Source: Ignavibacteria bacterium RIFOXYB12_FULL_35_14 (GTDB taxonomy: Bacteria; Bacteroidota; Ignavibacteria; Ignavibacteriales; Ignavibacteriaceae). From it: DNA of 48,102 bases. Below are positions 6,200 through 15,227 of the stretch, one piece after another; position 1 is the first letter of the stretch; the number at the start of each line of letters is the position of its first letter. The stretch is taken from the NCBI GenBank assembly GCA_001803045.1, contig MHAR01000038.1:1-48102 (forward strand), written 5' to 3'. The position numbers and the translations under genes are program-made. Under the pieces are notes generated by a model. That model was not told where the DNA came from. It made no database searches and worked only from the letters and a program-made list of their open reading frames with translations.

Positions 6200-7294
6200 A
6201 TGCTCATAGATATTGCAACGGCATCGCCGCCCTATAAAGTTTCTCAAACTGCTGCTTCAGAGGAACTTAAAAAAAGAATGGGAGCAAGACCTGCTGTTTC
6301 GAGAATGATAGATGCTGCTTCCGCTCACTCAGGAATTGAATCGCGTTATATTGTAATGCCGGATGCTGACCTAAATGCTGAGAATAAATTTTATTCAATT
6401 AACGGAGAATATATTAGTCCCGATACTCAAACGAGAATGAACGAGTACGAAAGCTGGTCTAAAAAACTTACTGTAAATGCTGTTGGTGAATTATTCAAAA
6501 AAAATAATGTTGATCCGAAGAGTATAGATCGTTTAATTACAATTTCGTGCACGGGGTTCTTTGCGCCGGGTCTTGATTATCATATTGTAAATGAGTTTCG
6601 AATTCCCAAAAGCGTTAAAAGAACAAACATTGGATTTATGGGTTGTGCAGCGTCTCTAATTGGTTTTAATTCTGTTTTAGAGTCAATGAATTCTGCCAAT
6701 AATAATGGCTCAATTGCATTATTAGTTTCGGTTGAGCTATGCAGTCTTCATCTACAAACCGAACCAACGCGGGATAATATTTTAGCCAATATGATTTTTG
6801 CCGATGGATGTGCAGCAGCTTTGTTCTCTAATGGTAAGTCAAATTCATTAAAGCCAAAATTTAAATTGCTAAGCACATCATCATACTTGTTTGATAACTC
6901 ATCAACATTTATGGGATGGAAGATTGGTAATTTTGGTTTTGAAATGTCTCTTTCTCCTGAACTTCCCAAAATAATTCTTGAATCGGCTGTTCCCACACTT
7001 GAAAATATTTTAAGGGAAAATAATATCAAGAAAGAAGACATAAAGCATTGGGCTTTGCATCCTGGCGGTCGGGCAATTTTGGACGCACTTCAAAAAGGAT
7101 TAAACTTAGCCGAGGAACAAATGCACCTATCAAGAAAAGTTTTAAGAAATTTTGGAAACATGTCTTCAGCATCAATACTTTTTGTGTTAAAGGAAATTAT
7201 CGATTCACAGACAGTTGAACCGGATGAATATTGCTGTGCAGTTGCTTTTGGACCTGGATTAACAATGGAAGCAGCCTTAATGAAGGGCATATAA
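6200..7294 (+). CDS. Type III polyketide synthase (chalcone/alkylresorcinol synthase family)
   Basis: Thiolase-fold homodimeric enzyme that extends an acyl-CoA starter with malonyl-CoA and cyclises the product. All three catalytic residues are visible: Cys117 in ISCTGFFAPGLD, His287 in WALHPGGRAIL and Asn320 in RNFGNMSSASILF. The ending AVAFGPGLTMEAALM is the normal GFGPG loop variant of the family. Length (364) is normal. The gene is directly coupled to a methyltransferase (TAATG overlap) and then an FAD oxidoreductase. This set equals the srsA-srsB-srsC organisation that makes methylated alkylresorcinols and quinones in Streptomyces griseus. A phenolic or pyrone membrane lipid is therefore the likely product (inference). 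Starter chain length cannot be read from the sequence. A Shine-Dalgarno-like AAAGGA precedes the start. Confidence 0.93.
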   Translation: MLIDIATASPPYKVSQTAASEELKKRMGARPAVSRMIDAASAHSGIESRYIVMPDADLNAENKFYSINGEYISPDTQTRMNEYESWSKKLTVNAVGELFKKNNVDPKSIDRLITISCTGFFAPGLDYHIVNEFRIPKSVKRTNIGFMGCAASLIGFNSVLESMNSANNNGSIALLVSVELCSLHLQTEPTRDNILANMIFADGCAAALFSNGKSNSLKPKFKLLSTSSYLFDNSSTFMGWKIGNFGFEMSLSPELPKIILESAVPTLENILRENNIKKEDIKHWALHPGGRAILDALQKGLNLAEEQMHLSRKVLRNFGNMSSASILFVLKEIIDSQTVEPDEYCCAVAFGPGLTMEAALMKGI

Positions 7295-7974
7295 TGTTTT
7301 TAAAAAAATATTCTCAGCCGGAATTAATGGATGACTTTTCTATCCAGGATGAAAGAGTAGATTTAGCATTACGCGAGCTACGGCTTATCAATTATTTTCT
7401 CGGTGGAAATAAAGGATCGAAGCGCGGTGTTTTAAAAATGATTTCAAACTTACCAAAGGATAAAATTTATCTTCTCGACGCAGGTTCAGGTTCTTCGGAT
7501 GTTTTGGACGACTTAAAAAAGAAGCATAAATCGGTTCGGGTTATTTCGCTTGATAGAAATAAAAGAGTCTGTAATTTTATAAAGAAGAACAATAATTTTA
7601 AGCCGATGGTTGTTTGTGCTGATGCCTTCAATTTACCGTTCAAGAATAAATCAATTGATATTATTCACACCTCGCTATTTCTTCATCATTTTAACTGTCA
7701 AAACTTAAAAAATATTTTGAGCAGGTTTAATGATGTGGCAAAGCAAGGAATAGTGATTAATGATCTCAGGCGATCTTTACTTGCATTCCTTGGCATCAAA
7801 ATTCTCACAATGCTATTTTCTAGAAGCGAATTGGTTAGGAGCGATGCACCGATATCGGTTAGAAAAGGATTTATCAAATCGGAGCTAACGGATTTATTGA
7901 AAGAAATGAATTTCGCCAATTATGAAATTGGAAGAAAATGGGCATTCCGGTGGGTAATTACCGCACATTTATAA
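7294..7974 (+). CDS. SAM methyltransferase of the polyketide operon (SrsB-like)
   Basis: A 226-residue class I methyltransferase. I place the start at the ATG at 7294, which shares one base with the stop of the polyketide synthase (TAATG) and has AAGGG just upstream; a longer reading from 7231 would lie inside the synthase gene. Motif I is LLDAGSGSSDVL (from D62), and HTSLFLHHFNCQNLKNIL replaces the usual 'LHH' motif. The middle NDLRRSLLAFLGIKILTMLFSRSELVRSDAPISVRKGF is typical of methyltransferases found beside type III polyketide synthases. It probably O- or C-methylates the aromatic product. Translational coupling argues for a dedicated partner enzyme. Confidence 0.85.
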   Translation: MFLKKYSQPELMDDFSIQDERVDLALRELRLINYFLGGNKGSKRGVLKMISNLPKDKIYLLDAGSGSSDVLDDLKKKHKSVRVISLDRNKRVCNFIKKNNNFKPMVVCADAFNLPFKNKSIDIIHTSLFLHHFNCQNLKNILSRFNDVAKQGIVINDLRRSLLAFLGIKILTMLFSRSELVRSDAPISVRKGFIKSELTDLLKEMNFANYEIGRKWAFRWVITAHL

Positions 7975-8001
7975 TCCCTACTATTCAAGCAAAACCAATT
8001 A

Positions 8002-9138
8002 ATGCAGCATGAAATAGCGGTCATTGGCGGTGGTCCCTCAGGTTCAACAGCGGCGATTTATCTTGCCGAATTTGGTTTTGATGTATGTCTCATCGAAAAG
8101 AAAATTTTTCCGCGTGAAGTTCTTTGCGGTGAATTCCTTTCTCGAGAGGTTGTAAATAATCTTAAAGAATTAAATATGTTCAGCGACTTCTTAAACCTGA
8201 ATCCAAATCCAATAAATTCTTTCGCGTTGTTTTACGATAAAAAAGAAATTTCCACACAATTGGATTTTCAAGCTTATGGATTAAAGAGATCTGCATTTGA
8301 TAATCTTCTTTTAATGAATGCTAAGGCAAAAGGGGTAAAAGTATATCAGCCGTATGAAGTTTCTGAAATTATTAAAAAAGATAGCGGGTATAAGTTGAGT
8401 TTGAAATCATCGGTTCAGTCCTCTCAAATAATTAATTCCAGATATGTTATAGCCGCTTATGGAAAAAGAAACCATCTCGATGCAAAGCTGAACAGAAAGT
8501 TCGTCTCGTATAAATCAAATCTGAATGGAATAAAATATCATGTTAACAAAAAGTTTTTAAGAAATGTTAAAGATGATCAAATTCAAATCTTTTCTGCTGA
8601 TGGAATTTATTGCGGCGTAAACTCTGTCAGCAATGAAGAGGTAACGTTTTGCTTTTTAGAAGATAGAGACGGTATATCAAGAACGCCGGTACAAAGTTTA
8701 GAGAGATTAGTAAACAGTAACAGCTCCTTCAAATCTCTCTTCAGTTTGGGAATAGGGAATGTGTTTTTATCAAATCGTGTATATGGTTCGGGAGATATAT
8801 TCTTCGGTCGAAGGGGTAGGGTTGAGAATGGAATATTTATGATTGGAGATGCTGCGCAAGTTATTACTCCACTTGCCGGAGACGGAATCAGCATGGCAAT
8901 GGATTCGGCTAAGCTGCTGGCAAATTTATTTAATAATAAAAAACAGAAGCATATTTCCGATGCTGGATTATACGAAATGTACAACGGTGAATGGCAAAAG
9001 TGTTTTGAGAGGAGATTAAAGACAGCACTATTCATTCAAAAAGTATTATTCAAGAAAGCCGGTAGAAGGATTGGTCTGAGCGGTTTACGATATTTTCCGC
9101 AAGCATTAAATTATTTTATAAAGAAAACGCGGGGATGA
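8002..9138 (+). CDS. FAD-dependent oxidoreductase, geranylgeranyl reductase/hydroxylase family (SrsC-like)
   Basis: A 378-residue flavoprotein with the N-terminal dinucleotide-binding loop IGGGPSGSTAA (G9-G14) and the second FAD motif GDAAQVITPLAGDGISMAM (G282-D283 onward), the ribityl-binding GD motif of the PHBH superfamily. Motif PREVLCGEFLS resembles the 'P.K.CGE' motif of geranylgeranyl-reductase-like proteins. It follows the methyltransferase by 27 bases and so belongs to the same operon. By analogy with SrsC it may hydroxylate the methylated phenolic lipid, giving a quinol or quinone; a reductase role on a lipid chain is also possible. There is no signal peptide. The gene ends about 90 bases before the GroES-like gene. 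Confidence 0.85.
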   Translation: MQHEIAVIGGGPSGSTAAIYLAEFGFDVCLIEKKIFPREVLCGEFLSREVVNNLKELNMFSDFLNLNPNPINSFALFYDKKEISTQLDFQAYGLKRSAFDNLLLMNAKAKGVKVYQPYEVSEIIKKDSGYKLSLKSSVQSSQIINSRYVIAAYGKRNHLDAKLNRKFVSYKSNLNGIKYHVNKKFLRNVKDDQIQIFSADGIYCGVNSVSNEEVTFCFLEDRDGISRTPVQSLERLVNSNSSFKSLFSLGIGNVFLSNRVYGSGDIFFGRRGRVENGIFMIGDAAQVITPLAGDGISMAMDSAKLLANLFNNKKQKHISDAGLYEMYNGEWQKCFERRLKTALFIQKVLFKKAGRRIGLSGLRYFPQALNYFIKKTRG

Positions 9139-9953: not shown

Positions 9954-10964
9954 TTATTCCCACCAATCAACAATTTCGAATCTTGATGATTTAAGTTTTG
10001 CTTTAGCATTTGCTAATGCCTGAGAACTGTAGAAGAAACTTGCATTACCTGTTGATTGAATATCGACATTAGTTCCAGCCAATATTGTGCCACCATAAAT
10101 TCCACCGTTCCCAGTTACCTTGCATTCAATTGATGAATTTTTATAAACAAGAACTATACCTCTGAAAGTGGAATTACCGGCCATTGACAGATTTCCGTTC
10201 ACGATCATTATACCGTCACCCTGGAATCCGCCTGTGAGATTTACATTGCCAGTCACGTAAGTAATTTTAGGTTCACTTGGAGTGCCATATTCACCCGCTG
10301 AATTGTATGTACCAGATGGTATGGTTATGTCAGCTGCAAAGATTAGTGCTTCTGTTACTGCTAACCAATCAGTGGTGTCGGAAACGGATCTTATACTGGG
10401 CGTACCACCTGCCCCAAGAATGTCATTGAAAATTTTTGGCTTAATGTTATTTATAAAATAAGCACTATCTGCAGGACTGTCTAGTCCCACTCCCGGAACC
10501 GGAGGATTAGGACCAGGGCTTCCATCAGTGTTATGGTCATTCCCATCGATATCCATATTCCCATTTAAATTTAAATTTAAACTTGTTGCATTAATGTACA
10601 TCGCGGAATTTATTGTCGGCATTTTTACAGGGGTTCTTTTCGCAAAAACAAAACTTCTATGTTCAGTGCCATAAAATCTTGCAGAAGATATAATATTTAA
10701 TGAACTATCTGGTCCAGAAATATTAATATCATATTTTCCACCCATAACTGAATTATCTTCAAATTCTCCAGCTAAATTTTTATTTCTTCTTAATTTCTCC
10801 AAATAAATCTCAATGCCAGTATTGGCTATAAGTCTCGCCTGAGTTTTTTTGAAAAAATTTACCGAGTTATCTACTTCTTGTGATGAATTAGAACTTAGGT
10901 TTGCCTTTAATATTGAAAGTAAAGCAGCAACTCCTATTACAATAATTAATAATGCTTTTCCCAT
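9954..10964 (-). CDS. PilX-like membrane-anchored pilus assembly protein, copy 1
   Basis: A 336-residue protein with one N-terminal membrane helix (residues 4-20, ALLIIVIGVAALLSILK) directly at the start and no prepilin-peptidase G|FxxxE site. Residues 30-60 (FFKKTQARLIANTGIEIYLEKL) resemble the helical region of PilX N-terminal domains. The C-terminal half is glycine/asparagine-rich beta structure (GNVNLTGGFQGDGIMIVNGNLSMAG) like the bactofilin-like repeats seen at the end of long PilX proteins. It ends RFEIVDWWE, closely matched by its paralogue at 12272-13516. It is the third gene of a V-W-X-like cassette, 2 bases after the PilW-like gene. Assignment to the type IV pilus/type II secretion minor pilin group is by gene order and shape. 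Confidence 0.65.
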   Translation of the reverse strand: MGKALLIIVIGVAALLSILKANLSSNSSQEVDNSVNFFKKTQARLIANTGIEIYLEKLRRNKNLAGEFEDNSVMGGKYDINISGPDSSLNIISSARFYGTEHRSFVFAKRTPVKMPTINSAMYINATSLNLNLNGNMDIDGNDHNTDGSPGPNPPVPGVGLDSPADSAYFINNIKPKIFNDILGAGGTPSIRSVSDTTDWLAVTEALIFAADITIPSGTYNSAGEYGTPSEPKITYVTGNVNLTGGFQGDGIMIVNGNLSMAGNSTFRGIVLVYKNSSIECKVTGNGGIYGGTILAGTNVDIQSTGNASFFYSSQALANAKAKLKSSRFEIVDWWE

Positions 10965-10966
10965 TT

Positions 10967-11530
10967 TTAAATACTCCTTGGTTTAATTGTCAATTCCCAG
11001 TAGGTAAATAAATATCTATTGTTTCCTCTTGAATCCTTAACCATATCAGCTGATTCAACGAAAAATTCAGCATTAACATATTTTACACTATCTAAATTTG
11101 CGGTTGATATTCCTTTATCATTAAGATATTCGAAATTTATATCAACCAATCCTAATGAGGGACCTTTGGATGTATCATTATTCACAACTCGATATAAAAT
11201 TTTATCTCTAGGATTAGTAGTATTCAGAACAGCAAGGGAATCGCTTAATTGATAAGTAATGACATCAACCACACCGTTCAAATCAATGTCAGCATAGAAT
11301 GATATTTTTTTTGGTTGAGCTGTGATGACTGCGGTTTCAATCTTTCCAAAACCAATTTTTCTGAGATCAAAACTTATAATATCAGCAAGTGTTTTTGCAT
11401 TTTGCTGAAGGCGAAGCTCGGAATCTGAACTAAATTTTACATTTGAAGAGTAAATGTTCAAATTCAGCATAACCAGTATTACCATTGCGCCAATTACTGA
11501 GGCACCTAATAGATCTAATAAAGTACTCAT
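10967..11530 (-). CDS. PilW-like minor pseudopilin, copy 1
   Basis: A 187-residue protein with an N-terminal membrane helix (LLGASVIGAMVILVMLNLNI, residues 8-27) followed by LRLQQNAKTLADIISFDLRKIGFG. The latter is the pattern of PilW/GspJ-like minor pilins ('Q.....L...D.R..G'). The canonical prepilin leader with GFTLIE is missing. The later NPRDKILYRVVNNDTSKGPSLGLVDINF is almost repeated in the paralogue at 13528-14133. Spacing to both neighbours is 2 bases, so it is the middle gene of a tight operon. It should sit in the inner membrane with its globular part outside the cytoplasm. Function in a pilus, pseudopilus or another fibre is inference. Confidence 0.65.
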   Translation of the reverse strand: MSTLLDLLGASVIGAMVILVMLNLNIYSSNVKFSSDSELRLQQNAKTLADIISFDLRKIGFGKIETAVITAQPKKISFYADIDLNGVVDVITYQLSDSLAVLNTTNPRDKILYRVVNNDTSKGPSLGLVDINFEYLNDKGISTANLDSVKYVNAEFFVESADMVKDSRGNNRYLFTYWELTIKPRSI

Positions 11531-11532
11531 AA

Positions 11533-12018
11533 CTACTTCAATGTAAAAATGAATGATAGACTAATTTGATTTTTCATATAAGGGCTCGATACGGTGACGG
11601 TTGCCTTTTTATAAAAAGTTTGAGTTGTAACAACTTGATCTGGATTATCCCCATTTACATATTGAACACTACATGACACATTATAATTTTCAGCATGAGG
11701 TGCGCTTACAATCTTTGTGTAATTATTAAAATCATCTATATCATTAAAGTTTGGATATGTTTCCCATCCACCTGGTCCTAAGCTACCCGCAGGTGTTAAG
11801 CTTGCAGTATTAGTGGTTGGAAAATCAACTGTTGCTGCATCAAATGCCCGTACTTTCATTTCTTCAATTAAGTCATCAGCTAAAGAAAATGCAGTTAGAA
11901 CAACTTTATTTTCTATTTCGGTTGTTGAATTACTCAAAACCACCCCATTAAAGTTTAAAGCTGATAATGCCAGGATTAGCATTGCCCCAAATGACAAAAG
12001 CGATTGTACATTACCCAT
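11533..12018 (-). CDS. PilV-like minor pseudopilin, copy 1
   Basis: A 161-residue protein with an N-terminal hydrophobic helix (LLSFGAMLILALSALNFNGVVL). It continues with a helix ending in ADDLIEEMKVRAFDAATVDF, similar to the 'A..L..E..R' helix of PilV/GspI-like proteins. The block ETYPNFNDIDDFNNYTK is matched by YPYFNDFDDFNGFHK in the paralogue at 14146-14673, as are IEE, KAFD-like and VSSPYMK segments. No GFTLIE-type cleavage site is present. It is the first gene of the downstream cassette, preceded by a 253-base gap that should hold its promoter. The ATG is preceded by a purine-rich AAAGAGAGAGAAAAA run. Confidence 0.65.
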   Translation of the reverse strand: MGNVQSLLSFGAMLILALSALNFNGVVLSNSTTEIENKVVLTAFSLADDLIEEMKVRAFDAATVDFPTTNTASLTPAGSLGPGGWETYPNFNDIDDFNNYTKIVSAPHAENYNVSCSVQYVNGDNPDQVVTTQTFYKKATVTVSSPYMKNQISLSFIFTLK

Positions 12019-12271
12019 TTTTTCTCTCTCTTTTTTCTTTCATAGTGTGCCAGAGTTTTTCAATATCTATTCCGAGAAAAAAGTCTGAAAAATTTTTTTT
12101 ATTCAAGGAAAATCATTTTAAGATGGGTGAGACTGACAGATGTTATTCGGTAATTCTTACAAAAGATCTGTAAGTGAATAAAAGTGATACACAATTTTAA
12201 AGAGTGTCTCACATGCTCGTAATTGAGAAAGATGATGTAGTACAGAAGGCATAAAAATTTTAAATAAATTT
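12019..12271. promoter_or_regulatory. Spacer between the two pilin-like cassettes
   Basis: This 253-base AT-rich gap separates the two cassettes. It contains a hairpin CTTACA-AAAGATC-TGTAAG (12156-12174), nested between GTGAGAC (12127-12133) and GTCTCAC (12206-12212). The structure could terminate the upstream cassette or regulate the downstream one. No coding sequence is credible here. I could not identify a promoter consensus. Confidence 0.35.
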
Positions 12272-13516
12272 TTATTCCAACCACGAAACAATTTCAAAAG
12301 AACCTGTCCCTGGGTACATGGGAGGTGAACTGAACATTAACCGCTCATCGTAACGATAACGTTTTGAGAAACCATGGTTAATGGTTGAACCGCTGAAAGT
12401 ACCAACAGCTTGCCGTGTGTTTTGAATGATACCACCGAGAAGATTTATACTTCCACTTACAGGTCTTGTGCTGTAATTTTCTGCTCCAAATCCTTTTGAT
12501 TCGCTGTAAATTGAGCCGTGAATATCAATGCTGTTGTTGTTAACAGCATTATCGGTAACATAAATTTCGTTCTTTGCTATTATTCCAAGCATATCCTCAG
12601 AAGTTGGGTCTACCCTCGGATCTGTATCATAGGTTATGTTATCGTCAAGATAAATTCTTCCTTTACCGCTGCTGCCTGAAGCTACAACAGAATATTGCCC
12701 TTTAACTTTACCTTGTAATCTGACAACGGCATCTTTTGCAAAGATAACTCCATTTGGTGCAAAGCTGCTGGTAAGGTATGTTGTAACAGATCCATTAAAA
12801 GTATATTTAATTTTTATGCTGTCAACTGTAAAAGTCATGTAAACTGTATCCTGACCAGTAAATTTGTGACCGCCTGCATCTGCGGCATTTTCAATTGGTG
12901 TTAAGCCATCAGTTGGTAAAGGTAGATTAACACCCTTCTCGAATCCACCATAAAACTTTGGTTTACTGCTGCTTGGATTTTTAACAATATTTCTTTTTGT
13001 AGTTGCTTTTCCCCAATAAACAGGGTTCCCGCTTACTCTAAGGTAATCTTGTGTATGGAATGGACCCCAAACTGTATCGCCAGTTATCCACCAAATTGTA
13101 CCTCCCTCGCTAATTGAGTAATAAGCAAATTTTGAAAATTTGCTGGGTTGTAAGGTAACCACTACGGTGCTTGTAACATCTTCCAAAATACCGAGGTTTG
13201 ATAATCGTTTTACAGTTCCTGTAGAGGTAATTTGCCTTATATTTTTAATTACCGGAGGCAAAATTTCTACACTCACATTTAAAATGCCATTTTGATAACT
13301 AAGGTTATTATACCCCGCTGTCCAAGTGGGATCGAAGTATATTCGGTTCGAGGCCATATTTGCGCCCGCAGCAGCAATATCATGGGCTACCGTTTCTGCG
13401 TAGTAATCAGTAAGATTATCTACTGCACGGGTTGATAAACCGCCGAAATTTTTACCTATTGCTAGGAATATTAAGCTGAAACCAACAACTAAAAATAAAG
13501 CTGCTTTACCTGCCAT
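12272..13516 (-). CDS. PilX-like membrane-anchored pilus assembly protein, copy 2
   Basis: A 414-residue paralogue of the protein at 9954-10964. The N-terminal membrane helix is AALFLVVGFSLIFLAIG (residues 5-21), then a helical stretch DNLTDYYAETVAHDIAAAGANMASNRIYF. That stretch matches the T4P PilX N-terminal pattern of a helix preceding a beta domain. The C-terminal region has beta-rich repeats (GVIFAKDAVVRLQGKVKG, then NSIDIHGSIYSESKGFG) and ends SFEIVSWLE, the same tail seen in copy 1 (RFEIVDWWE). It is longer than copy 1 because of about 80 extra residues in the middle (HTQDYLRVSGNPVYWGK...). No prepilin-peptidase site is seen. It is 11 bases after the PilW-like gene. Confidence 0.65.
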   Translation of the reverse strand: MAGKAALFLVVGFSLIFLAIGKNFGGLSTRAVDNLTDYYAETVAHDIAAAGANMASNRIYFDPTWTAGYNNLSYQNGILNVSVEILPPVIKNIRQITSTGTVKRLSNLGILEDVTSTVVVTLQPSKFSKFAYYSISEGGTIWWITGDTVWGPFHTQDYLRVSGNPVYWGKATTKRNIVKNPSSSKPKFYGGFEKGVNLPLPTDGLTPIENAADAGGHKFTGQDTVYMTFTVDSIKIKYTFNGSVTTYLTSSFAPNGVIFAKDAVVRLQGKVKGQYSVVASGSSGKGRIYLDDNITYDTDPRVDPTSEDMLGIIAKNEIYVTDNAVNNNSIDIHGSIYSESKGFGAENYSTRPVSGSINLLGGIIQNTRQAVGTFSGSTINHGFSKRYRYDERLMFSSPPMYPGTGSFEIVSWLE

Positions 13517-13527
13517 CTCTTATTTCC

Positions 13528-14133
13528 TTACCTGTTTCTTAAATTGCGTGCAACTAAACGTATCTGCCGCCAAAAAGCGGATGAATATTGTTCATTATAT
13601 CCCGCCGTATTTTCAACTGTAAGATTAATTTCAATTGTATATACTTCACTTGGAACTATAATCGGCAAATTGATTGTGTCTCCAAGTGCATCAAAATATA
13701 TCAGCTTGAATTGTGTAACACCAAGGTTAATACCTGTAGGTGTTTCGTTGTTTACTACTCTGTATAAAAATCTGTCTCTCGGATTGGGTGTTTGCGTAAG
13801 TTCGGAAGTAGGACCCAAGTAATAATAAATACTATCGACATTTTCCAGACCATTTTCTGCAATATCGGTTAAAAATTTTATTCTAGTTGAATCTGCAAGT
13901 AAAATGGATTTTGAAGGATCGGGAATTTTTTTCCAATCGGCACAATAACCGATCTTTCTAAAATCATTTTCGAGTACTTTTGCAGTAACCGAAAGATTTT
14001 GCTGCAAGCTTAGCTCACCGCCGTTATTGTAAACATTTTCAACCGCTGAGCTATTCATTCTGAAAAGAATGAGCATTATTAATCCACCGATTAAAATCGA
14101 ACCTGCAAGGTCAATTATATCACTAAAACCCAT
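13528..14133 (-). CDS. PilW-like minor pseudopilin, copy 2
   Basis: A 201-residue paralogue of the protein at 10967-11530. The N-terminal membrane helix is IIDLAGSILIGGLIMLILFRM, followed by LSLQQNLSVTAKVLENDFRKIGYC, the conserved helix and 'D.RKIG' turn. The shared block NPRDRFLYRVVNNETPTGINLGVTQF is the strongest evidence that the two genes are duplicates. The C-terminal TIEINLTVENTAGY and FWRQIRLVARNLRN resemble the last strands of GspJ/PilW folds. There is no canonical leader peptide. It is 12 bases after the PilV-like gene and 11 bases before the PilX-like gene. Confidence 0.65.
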   Translation of the reverse strand: MGFSDIIDLAGSILIGGLIMLILFRMNSSAVENVYNNGGELSLQQNLSVTAKVLENDFRKIGYCADWKKIPDPSKSILLADSTRIKFLTDIAENGLENVDSIYYYLGPTSELTQTPNPRDRFLYRVVNNETPTGINLGVTQFKLIYFDALGDTINLPIIVPSEVYTIEINLTVENTAGYNEQYSSAFWRQIRLVARNLRNR

Positions 14134-14145
14134 TTCTTTACCTTA

Positions 14146-14673
14146 TTATCTAAAGTGAAAATAACTGTAAACAGATGATAACTTAACAGTATCTTGTTCA
14201 TTCGGATCCTTAGCACTTTTCATTGATGGACTAGTTACAGAAACATCAATTCTCTTATGCCATGTTCTAACACCTGAAACAACCGATGGATTTGTTTCGG
14301 AAACATACTTTACTGTGCAATCTATATCGAAGATGGCAAAGGCCTTGGAATCGATTTTAATCGTATCACGCTTATGAAATCCATTAAAATCATCAAAATC
14401 ATTAAAATATGGGTAATATTCTCCACTTGCTGCACCCAAGGGGGGAGGAGTAAGTTGAGTTAAACTTGTAATTGCATTTTCGGAACCGGCGAGGTCGAAT
14501 GCTTTACCGTTAGCTTCTTCGATAATAGATGTTCCGAGTGATATAGCAAGTACGCCAAATTTTGTGTTATAGAGAACACTGCTGGTATTCAAAAACTTAC
14601 CATTTATACCAAGTATCGTTATTGATAACAACAACATTGCGCCAGCAGCTAACATAGTATGGCCAGTACTCAT
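14146..14673 (-). CDS. PilV-like minor pseudopilin, copy 2
   Basis: A 175-residue paralogue of the protein at 11533-12018 and first gene of the upstream cassette. The hydrophobic N-terminal helix is MLAAGAMLLLSITILGINGKFL. The helix continuation includes GTSIIEEANGKAFDLAGSENA. The block YPYFNDFDDFNGFHK and the late VKYVSETNPSVV and VSVTSPSMK match copy 1. Its ATG is preceded by AGAAGGATGATGAATA, a reasonable Shine-Dalgarno. It faces the aconitase gene across a 554-base divergent intergenic region. No G|FxxxE cleavage site is visible, so export and assembly probably depend on the uncleaved helix (inference). Confidence 0.65.
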   Translation of the reverse strand: MSTGHTMLAAGAMLLLSITILGINGKFLNTSSVLYNTKFGVLAISLGTSIIEEANGKAFDLAGSENAITSLTQLTPPPLGAASGEYYPYFNDFDDFNGFHKRDTIKIDSKAFAIFDIDCTVKYVSETNPSVVSGVRTWHKRIDVSVTSPSMKSAKDPNEQDTVKLSSVYSYFHFR

Positions 14674-15227
14674 TATTCATCATCCTTCTAATTGTAGGCA
14701 ATTTTAAGTTTTATTTCAGCATGTAATTTTTTACTTCTTACTTGTAATTTTTTAGCATGCCAATTTTCCATACATTTATTCACTTAACTATGCAAATGTT
14801 ATGCAGATAATAATGAGATTTTGATTATTCATTTCAAGTAAAAACCAAATTTAAAATGAGACTGTCTTAGGATGTACCAAAAAATTGACTTATTAAAATG
14901 AATTAGTTACCTGCATGGTGTACCTTTTTTCCAAGATAAATTTTTTTCTAAAAATGATGCAGTTACATAATTACATCCACATCGACTTTTGTATGAAAGA
15001 AGATGATCGCATCAAATGATTTTCTTCGTTATGATATTACTAAACATCTTCATACATTTTATTAAACATTATTTAAAACTGATTATAGGGTGGGAAAAGT
15101 GGTCATAAGGGACATGGCTAAACTAAATGATTTCTAGGTATTAGGTAACTTTAATATGTTTTTATTAATTTTATCAATAATAAACATTGCGCATTTTTAT
15201 TTTTAACAGAAAAGTAAAGGTAAAAAC
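14674..15227. promoter_or_regulatory. Divergent intergenic region, pilin-like operon / aconitase
   Basis: This 554-base gap carries no credible gene. Near the pilin side, TGTAATTTTTTA occurs twice in direct orientation (14722-14733 and 14743-14754), framed by GCATG on one side and GCATGC on the other. This could be an operator, but no regulator is known. The rest is AT-rich sequence in which I recognise nothing. The aconitase start has GTAAAGG about 8 bases upstream. Confidence 0.3.

Follow-up and report, generated by a model that had tools for sequence, protein, structure and literature searches.

Side-by-side cassettes of leaderless minor pilins in an Ignavibacteria genome, probable tips of a type IV filament machine without detected prepilin peptidase

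The window analysed here, a 48,102-nt stretch of contig MHAR01000038.1 from Ignavibacteria bacterium RIFOXYB12_FULL_35_14 (genome G000 below), contains six minus-strand open reading frames (ORFs) that form two operon-like groups, V2-W2-X2 and V1-W1-X1, 253 bp apart (Table 1). An initial annotation of this DNA had described them as a tandemly duplicated cassette of PilV-, PilW- and PilX-like proteins without prepilin cleavage sites. From the analysis below we conclude that V-W-X is most probably the tip complex of a type IV filament machine whose pilins, major and minor, lack the class III leader.

The pairing of the two sets is borne out by BLASTP among the six proteins. V1 and V2 match at 36% over 154 aa (E 3e-28), W1 and W2 at 33% over 190 columns (E 7e-26), and X1 and X2 at 33% over an N-terminal stretch of 49 aa (E 4e-5), with E values of at least 0.26 for their remaining pieces. 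The shared blocks FNDxDDFN in the V pair and NPRD..LYRVVNN in the W pair are present as claimed, as is the FEIVxWxE ending of the X pair: the last eight residues read FEIVDWWE in X1 and FEIVSWLE in X2, and the middle part has diverged. In a tree of 79 W proteins (midpoint root, several long branches), W1 groups with L042 and L043 (support 100/100), and W2 falls in a different clade of eight rows (support 98/95). Because W1 and W2 stand in separate clades, the two cassettes are old paralogues standing side by side, and the tree rules out a recent tandem duplication. The duplication proposed initially thus holds as paralogy, with its age corrected to ancient. G000 has a third V-W-X cassette on contig C47 (L059, 6974-9283), with no pil machine gene on the stretch read there. 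The closest named relative is an Ignavibacteriaceae metagenome-assembled genome (L021), whose W2 is 85% identical.

Table 1. Positions of the cassette genes and intergenic regions in the window, and of short PilD-like proteins at other loci
Feature	Position	Strand	Description
V2	14146-14673	minus	175 aa, leaderless, N-terminus MSTGHTMLAAGAM; minor pilin in GspI/PilV position, from ORF and family A4
W2	13528-14133	minus	201 aa, leaderless, N-terminus MGFSDIIDLAGS; predicted GspJ/PilW-type minor pilin; acidic D5, D8
X2	12272-13516	minus	414 aa, leaderless, N-terminus MAGKAALFLVVG; predicted tip pilin in GspK/ComZ position
V1	11533-12018	minus	161 aa, N-terminus MGNVQSLLSFGAM; paralogue of V2
W1	10967-11530	minus	187 aa, N-terminus MSTLLDLLGAS; paralogue of W2; acidic D6
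X1	9954-10964	minus	336 aa, N-terminus MGKALLIIVIG; paralogue of X2
Intergenic region between the two cassettes	12019-12271		upstream of V1
Intergenic region	14674-15227		upstream of V2
Very short PilD-like protein, L137	5466-5948		the four are 153-160 aa long
Very short PilD-like protein, L138	4152-4631		
Very short PilD-like protein, L139	2477-2944		
Very short PilD-like protein, L140	2011-2472		

None of the six window proteins matched a Pfam or NCBIfam model above its cut-off. The AlphaFold2 model of W2 (predicted local distance difference test score, pLDDT, 81.6) has a helix at residues 4-59 and beta-strands after it. Aligned with VIA, it returned ten entries at Z 12.1-9.9, all type IV pilin-like proteins or minor pseudopilins: the top entries are TTHA1219 (a type IV-like pilin), EpsI/EpsJ, XcpV/W/X and GspIJK, and the named chains are XcpW or GspJ. 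The next row is another pilin, FimA, at Z 3.2, and unrelated proteins come thereafter. The X2 model (pLDDT 90.1) consists of a pilin head (about residues 1-126, plus the last strand at 403-413) with a beta-solenoid (about 124-392) between. Its best VIA match is ComZ of Thermus (6qvi; Z 16.9 over 321 residues, root-mean-square deviation 9.8), and the large deviation suggests that head and solenoid are oriented differently in the X2 model and in ComZ. Taken separately, the head matches minor pilins (Z 9.0 and 8.7) and the solenoid ice-binding beta-solenoids (Z 14.9-12.8); the solenoid also resembles tapirins. X2 matches chains of EpsI/EpsJ and XcpV/W/X at Z 7.3-5.4, and GspK has no row among the 50 VIA matches listed.

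By these models, W is a pilin fold of the GspJ/PilW kind and X one of the ComZ kind. V, W and X are most probably minor pilins (GspI/J/K-like). The structural check was done for W2 and X2 and gave pilin folds, neither of them unrelated, so that the minor-pilin assignment of the initial annotation is upheld. Sequence models add the following. In the W family, 13 of 23 members match PRK10557 (prepilin peptidase-dependent protein, best 1.2e-5), W2 itself scoring 13.8 bits against a cut-off of 120. X1 matches the GspK model weakly over residues 6-62 (E 0.0012, below cut-off), as does one of 24 X family members, and 5 of 22 members of V family A4 match the PilV model TIGR02523 (best E 0.011). Three further matches were rejected as chance: V1 to an MCR-type transferase (E 0.004, residues 83-127), W1 to FtcD and X2 to DUF4900 (E 0.0012, below cut-off).

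The initial annotation had also reported no major pilin, PilB or PilQ nearby. This holds for the window, where a pattern scan gave no MGQQQ-type pilin and no class III-like motif; a machine with three pilA candidates is encoded elsewhere in the genome, on contig C90 (L077). There, three tandem pilA-like genes, pilC and pilB are accompanied by a second ATPase of the PilT/PilB-type (T2SSE), after which come a fused pilM/N-like gene, a pilO-like gene, a secretin gene and a response regulator. Pfam matches are T2SSF for PilC (E 3e-28), T2SSE for PilB (E 6e-104) and for the second ATPase (E 1.4e-33), and PF00263 for the secretin (E 6e-25). Profiles of the M/N-like and O-like genes match PilN (3jc8; 1.5e-7) and PilO (4e-4), respectively; the N-terminal part of the M/N-like gene has no PilM match by Pfam or profile. 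The genome scan for pilD, pilB and major pilins thus yielded pilB and leaderless pilA candidates, with no pilD detected.

We compared 59 genomes (the window's own and 58 relatives) with 14 control genomes and a phylum sample of 247 genomes. Among the 59, PilC is found in 56 and W homologues in 56. W and PilC are missing from the same three, G016, G025 and G036, the last being a fragmented assembly in which one ATPase is still present. Twenty loci were fetched around pilC, and 11 of them (L078-L088) were picked because W is close by; the linkage listing for these shows the genes matching the reference set only. V-W-X is divergent from the pilA-pilC operon in 9 of the 11, precedes it on the same strand in L086, and lies inside the operon, between pilB and the second ATPase, in L081. 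At the other nine fetched pilC loci, including G000's own, V-W-X is outside the stretch. By eye, W and PilC are within about 10 kb of each other in 12 of 56 genomes.

The same arrangement recurs further away. Eighteen more distant regions were picked by pilA or PilC alone; 17 hold pilC, all of them with pilA, and V, W or X genes occur in 9 of these 17, always between pilB and the second ATPase (two cassettes in L118 and L134). With the family profiles, W went undetected in L120, as did X in L126 and L127. Several tandem pilA genes stand in many loci. As a separate observation, pilB and the second ATPase stand about 660-680 bp apart in L117, L119, L122 and L124, and this gap, the V-W-X site elsewhere, has no match to the families used. 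In L126, L127 and L133 the PilB ORFs are 1161, 1127 and 1128 aa long, nearly double the usual length.

Could this machine be a short secretion pseudopilus, like that of a type II secretion system (T2SS), rather than a surface pilus? The I-J-K gene order, the GspJ-like fold and the secretin would fit, and the Cytophaga system of this phylum is called a T2SS though it clusters with type IVa pili (T4aP), according to the available part of the source. Two ATPases of the PilB/PilT kind, the tandem pilA genes and the ComZ-like X argue for a surface pilus instead, and we consider the pseudopilus unlikely.

We turn to the N-termini. All six window genes start directly at a hydrophobic helix, in agreement with the missing cleavage site reported initially. 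Between the upstream in-frame stop and the start there is 1 codon in V2, 3 in W2, 1 in X2, 7 in V1, 10 in W1 and 6 in X1; none of these upstream codons is ATG, GTG or TTG, and W1 has ATC/ATT. Family sets were collected by BLAST to G000 proteins at E 1e-4, which misses diverged members, and deduplicated by identical protein only. The start stands at the family column in 67 of 68 V and 73 of 74 X genes, the one V and one X left out being cut by a contig or locus end. The codons from the upstream stop to the family start include no ATG, GTG or TTG in 43 of 44 pilA, 61 of 67 V, 63 of 68 W and 70 of 73 X genes. The distance from stop to start is at most five codons in 32 of 44, 43 of 67, 44 of 68 and 47 of 73, respectively, which is too short for a six-residue leader whichever start codon is used. 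In every member of alignments A1-A4 the first strongly hydrophobic 15-residue window starts at residue 1 to 6, and the family start of all 44 pilA proteins reads MGQQQ. The distant loci hold 33 pilA-like genes, of which 29 have MGQQQ at the first possible start, two have MANKE, one MGTQQ and one MFMGQ, with MGQQQ two codons on; some distant V, W and X genes have upstream room of up to 37 codons. These pilins are leaderless at the gene level. As the start codon directly precedes the hydrophobic helix, translation itself would yield the kind of product that prepilin peptidase usually releases.

The first residues follow a regular pattern. With Met numbered 1, Gln occupies position 5 in 44 of 44 pilA and 57 of 67 V proteins, and Glu does so in the MANKE pilins. 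W has an acidic residue at position 8 or 6 in 66 of 68, and all 73 X proteins have exactly one Lys/Arg in the first eight residues and no acidic residue in the first ten. Aligned by the mature pilin consensus, the pattern resembles that of canonical pilins around E5, with a neutral residue in its place, a register and meaning that we infer. Removal of the initiator Met by Met-aminopeptidase depends on residue 2, and by this rule Met would be lost in 44 of 44 pilA, 61 of 68 W, 65 of 73 X and 22 of 67 V proteins.

The same N-termini allow for an ultra-short, Gly-ended leader (MG|, MNTG| or MGG|) removed by an unrelated replacement peptidase. Most members do have Gly near the helix: all 44 pilA proteins begin MGQQQ, residue 2 is Gly in 55 of 68 W, and the commonest starts are MNTGQ in V and MGGKA in X. 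Genes outside the reference set were not catalogued as neighbours, and no search was aimed at a linked peptidase of a new kind. W1 (MSTLLD) lacks such a Gly and V1 (MGNVQS) has none directly before the helix, and we hold this explanation to be improbable.

Prepilin peptidase was not detected in 56 of the 59 genomes, including G000, by PF01478 or by a second profile made from 14 PilDs of this phylum, among them reduced forms. PF01478 is present in G039, G040 and G053 (and in 12 of 14 controls). The second profile, run on the 59 genomes only, is strong in the same three; its other matches have E 4e-4 or worse, some with internal stops, and 13 of the 59 genomes have a match at E ≤1. N_methyl is found in 2 of 59 (G039 and G053) and in 8 of 14 controls. 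At L136 in G039, PilD stands beside leadered pilins (GFTLIELM, GFSLTELM, GYTLIETL), a second, canonical cluster; because it accompanies the leaderless system, both kinds occur in G039. In G040, a 7,568-base contig carries PilD and an extra PilB; the genome has one PilC and no N_methyl match. The canonical clusters of PilD and leadered pilins at L136 (G039) and L147 (G053) are usable as internal controls within leaderless-system genomes.

The phylum sample gives the same picture. A leaderless pilin is found in 87 of 247 genomes, PilC in 123 and PF01478 in 35. All 87 leaderless-pilin genomes have PilC, and 77 of them are without PF01478; the other 10, with PF01478, each have four or more PilC domain matches, which means at least a second PilC. 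Among the 36 genomes with PilC but without leaderless pilin, PF01478 is present in 25 and not found in 11. No genome in the sample has PF01478 without PilC. On the side, G100 (C50) and G215 (C4) have a high-scoring second PilC with PF01478 not found, and may hold either a missed peptidase or another peptidase-less system. G002 (C1:2518637-2519617) has extra high-scoring PilC pieces, an internal stop in one and no PF01478, possibly a decayed canonical system.

A divergent PilD might still have been missed and act on these proteins. With PF01478 the reduced PilD of f25 scores low, which means that strongly reduced forms can escape this model. Nonetheless the phylum-built profile is strong in G039, G040 and G053 only, about two thirds of the genes have no room for a six-residue leader, and the 2013 genome paper, as far as its text was available, has no pilD in Melioribacter roseus either. 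We regard a missed PilD as very improbable. The very short PilD-like proteins of L137-L140 (Table 1) are another matter: leadered pilins lie near them in L137-L139, the three loci covered by the pilin scan. Judged by length, they are perhaps peptidases without methylation, too short for the N-terminal methyltransferase half. Such peptidases are known from type IVc pili (T4cP), according to the excerpted 2023 review.

Several points weigh against a leaderless filament machine as we describe it. The filament is predicted here from genes and modelled structures, and pilA is named as the major pilin by its position and N-terminal pattern; matches of the pilA family are scattered (1 of 21 to TIGR02596, E 4e-4; 2 of 21 to ComP_DUS, best 0.041). 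Foldseek against the PDB gave no match at E ≤0.001 for W2 or X2, and their pilin matches come from VIA as second aligner, run on the Foldseek candidate lists. Support for the V family is weak. When profiles of pilA, W and V were compared with those of canonical pilins from this phylum, no match was significant, and neither was pilA against V. Searching PDB sequences with profiles of the three families likewise gave nothing significant (pilA against a Geobacter pilin, E 0.99, over the helix). In a local control run, only pilA/A9 (E 0.005), V/A8 (0.02) and pilA/A10 (0.027) did better than the best unrelated comparison, pilA against pilO (E 0.046). The mature register is uncertain because V would mostly keep its Met, unlike pilA, W and X. 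Leadered pilins do occur in this group, since G039 and G053 carry them and PMC7399161, in its accessible part, reports PilFind-supported type IV pilins in an Ignavibacteriales genome. Among the 77 peptidase-negative genomes of the phylum sample, 10 have more than two PilC domain matches, and because of these extra matches a missed peptidase is possible there. Finally, the reduced PilD of f25, 159-160 aa long, reached only E 8.5e-5 and 5.7e-6 with PF01478.

How does the system compare with known ones? It shares with the type IV filament superfamily (T4aP, T2SS and Com pili) PilC, PilB/PilT-type ATPases, a secretin, PilN/PilO-like proteins, the I-J-K order of minor pilins and the predicted pilin folds of W and X. 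It differs in having no class III leader, no peptidase detected in 56 of 59 genomes and, in all 44 pilA proteins, Gln5 in place of Glu5. The available passages of a 2023 review have the class III leader define prepilins and count the peptidase among five ancestral parts of the superfamily. The literature cited here as the 2013 genome paper, the 2019 superfamily survey, the 2023 review and the ComZ paper is among PMC6668835, PMC3534657, PMC10191384 and PMC6561018, each seen as partial text.

The closest single likeness is to ComZ-PilA2 of Thermus thermophilus: in X2 as in ComZ, a beta-solenoid interrupts the pilin head ahead of its last strand. In the part of the ComZ paper at hand, ComZ is a proposed tip pilin that PilFind did not recognise, with a predicted hydrophobic helix at residues 5-27, and a signal sequence is mentioned for other Thermus pilins. 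A peptidase is present in the control Thermus composti, whereas here the whole set, including the major candidates, is leaderless. The minor pseudopilins GspI-GspJ-GspK are alike in gene order and in the fold of W, and unlike in the X solenoid, in the leaders absent here, and in that X2 has ComZ and no GspK among the matches listed. The so-called T2SS of Cytophaga is, from partial text, likewise a type IV filament machine of Bacteroidetes with a very divergent major pilin. The pilins read from families f25 and f16 (L137, L138, L139) differ from ours in having class III-like leaders, with a reduced PilD of 155-160 aa nearby; as a guess, f25 or f16 are Cytophaga relatives.

Systems lacking a peptidase gene have been noted before. 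The 2019 survey, as available in part, describes peptidase-less MSH loci, yet their genomes encode a peptidase in another system; it also singles out the Bacteroidetes T2SS as peculiar. PMC9563170, also seen in part, reports archaeal pilus-like gene clusters without prepilin peptidase. In the open-access literature, mostly on this phylum, we found no report of leaderless type IV pilins or of peptidase-less systems of this kind.

Prepilins are inserted N-in. In the mechanism that we propose, each pilin would be inserted N-in by its own uncleaved helix and would lose at most the initiator Met. V-W-X would start the fibre with X as its cap, PilC and PilB would add pilA, the presumed major pilin, below the tip, the fibre would exit through the secretin, and the second ATPase would retract it. 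The two or three cassettes per genome may serve as alternative tips, because X1 and X2 are alike in the docking parts (N-terminal helix and last strand) and different in the middle. According to the excerpted 2023 review, the tip complex of canonical systems is made of minor pilins, the capping subunit lacking Glu5, and the salt bridge of Glu5 to the neighbour's N-terminal amine is thought to neutralise charges or drive docking. By analogy, a cap X without acidic residue among its first ten fits the canonical tip-cap rule; pilA, the major-pilin candidate, carries Gln5. The initial suggestions included a tip or initiation complex for a fibre bypassing PilD. The pilin folds and the lack of a detected peptidase in the genome speak for it; tip position, assembly and function remain putative.

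It is probably through its solenoid that X would touch DNA or a surface polymer. One reading of the function, compatible with the tip complex, is a pilus for DNA uptake (competence) in which X serves as the DNA receptor, a role that has been proposed for ComZ. X2 is closest to ComZ, which binds DNA according to the ComZ paper in its available part, and 56 of the 59 genomes carry ComEC. G016 and G025, in which W and PilC went undetected, carry it too, and it was not detected in G005 and G019, which have both; because of this mismatch ComEC does not track the system and was dropped as an uninformative clue to function. Adhesion to a polymer is as likely as DNA uptake because the solenoid also resembles ice-binding proteins and tapirins. 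We keep the competence pilus as a tentative but serious candidate. Elsewhere in the window (6200-9138, by eye), type III polyketide synthase-like, methyltransferase-like and flavoprotein-like genes stand in a row.

Taken further, we think it rather likely that this is a phylum-wide filament lineage without any prepilin processing, peptidase or N-methylation, with Met at the place of the processed first residue and Gln5, or Glu5 in the two MANKE pilins, in register with it, with assembly that needs no leader, a neutral position 5 in the major pilin, and exchangeable tip cassettes for several targets. It may explain the broken pilus set reported in this group. For M. roseus, the available part of the 2013 paper lists pilT, pilQ, pilB and pilC, without pilA or pilD. 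In G056, which we take to be M. roseus, two MGQQQ pilins directly adjoin pilC, and PilD was not detected by PF01478 or the second PilD profile. A broken set may have been reported because usual searches target N_methyl pilins and pilD. The finding suggests that type IV filaments can do without a processing step held to be universal. The significance of N-methylation is called a mystery in the excerpted 2023 review. If our reading is true, these bacteria would offer a natural system in which to ask what the leader, N-methylation and the Glu5 salt bridge are for.

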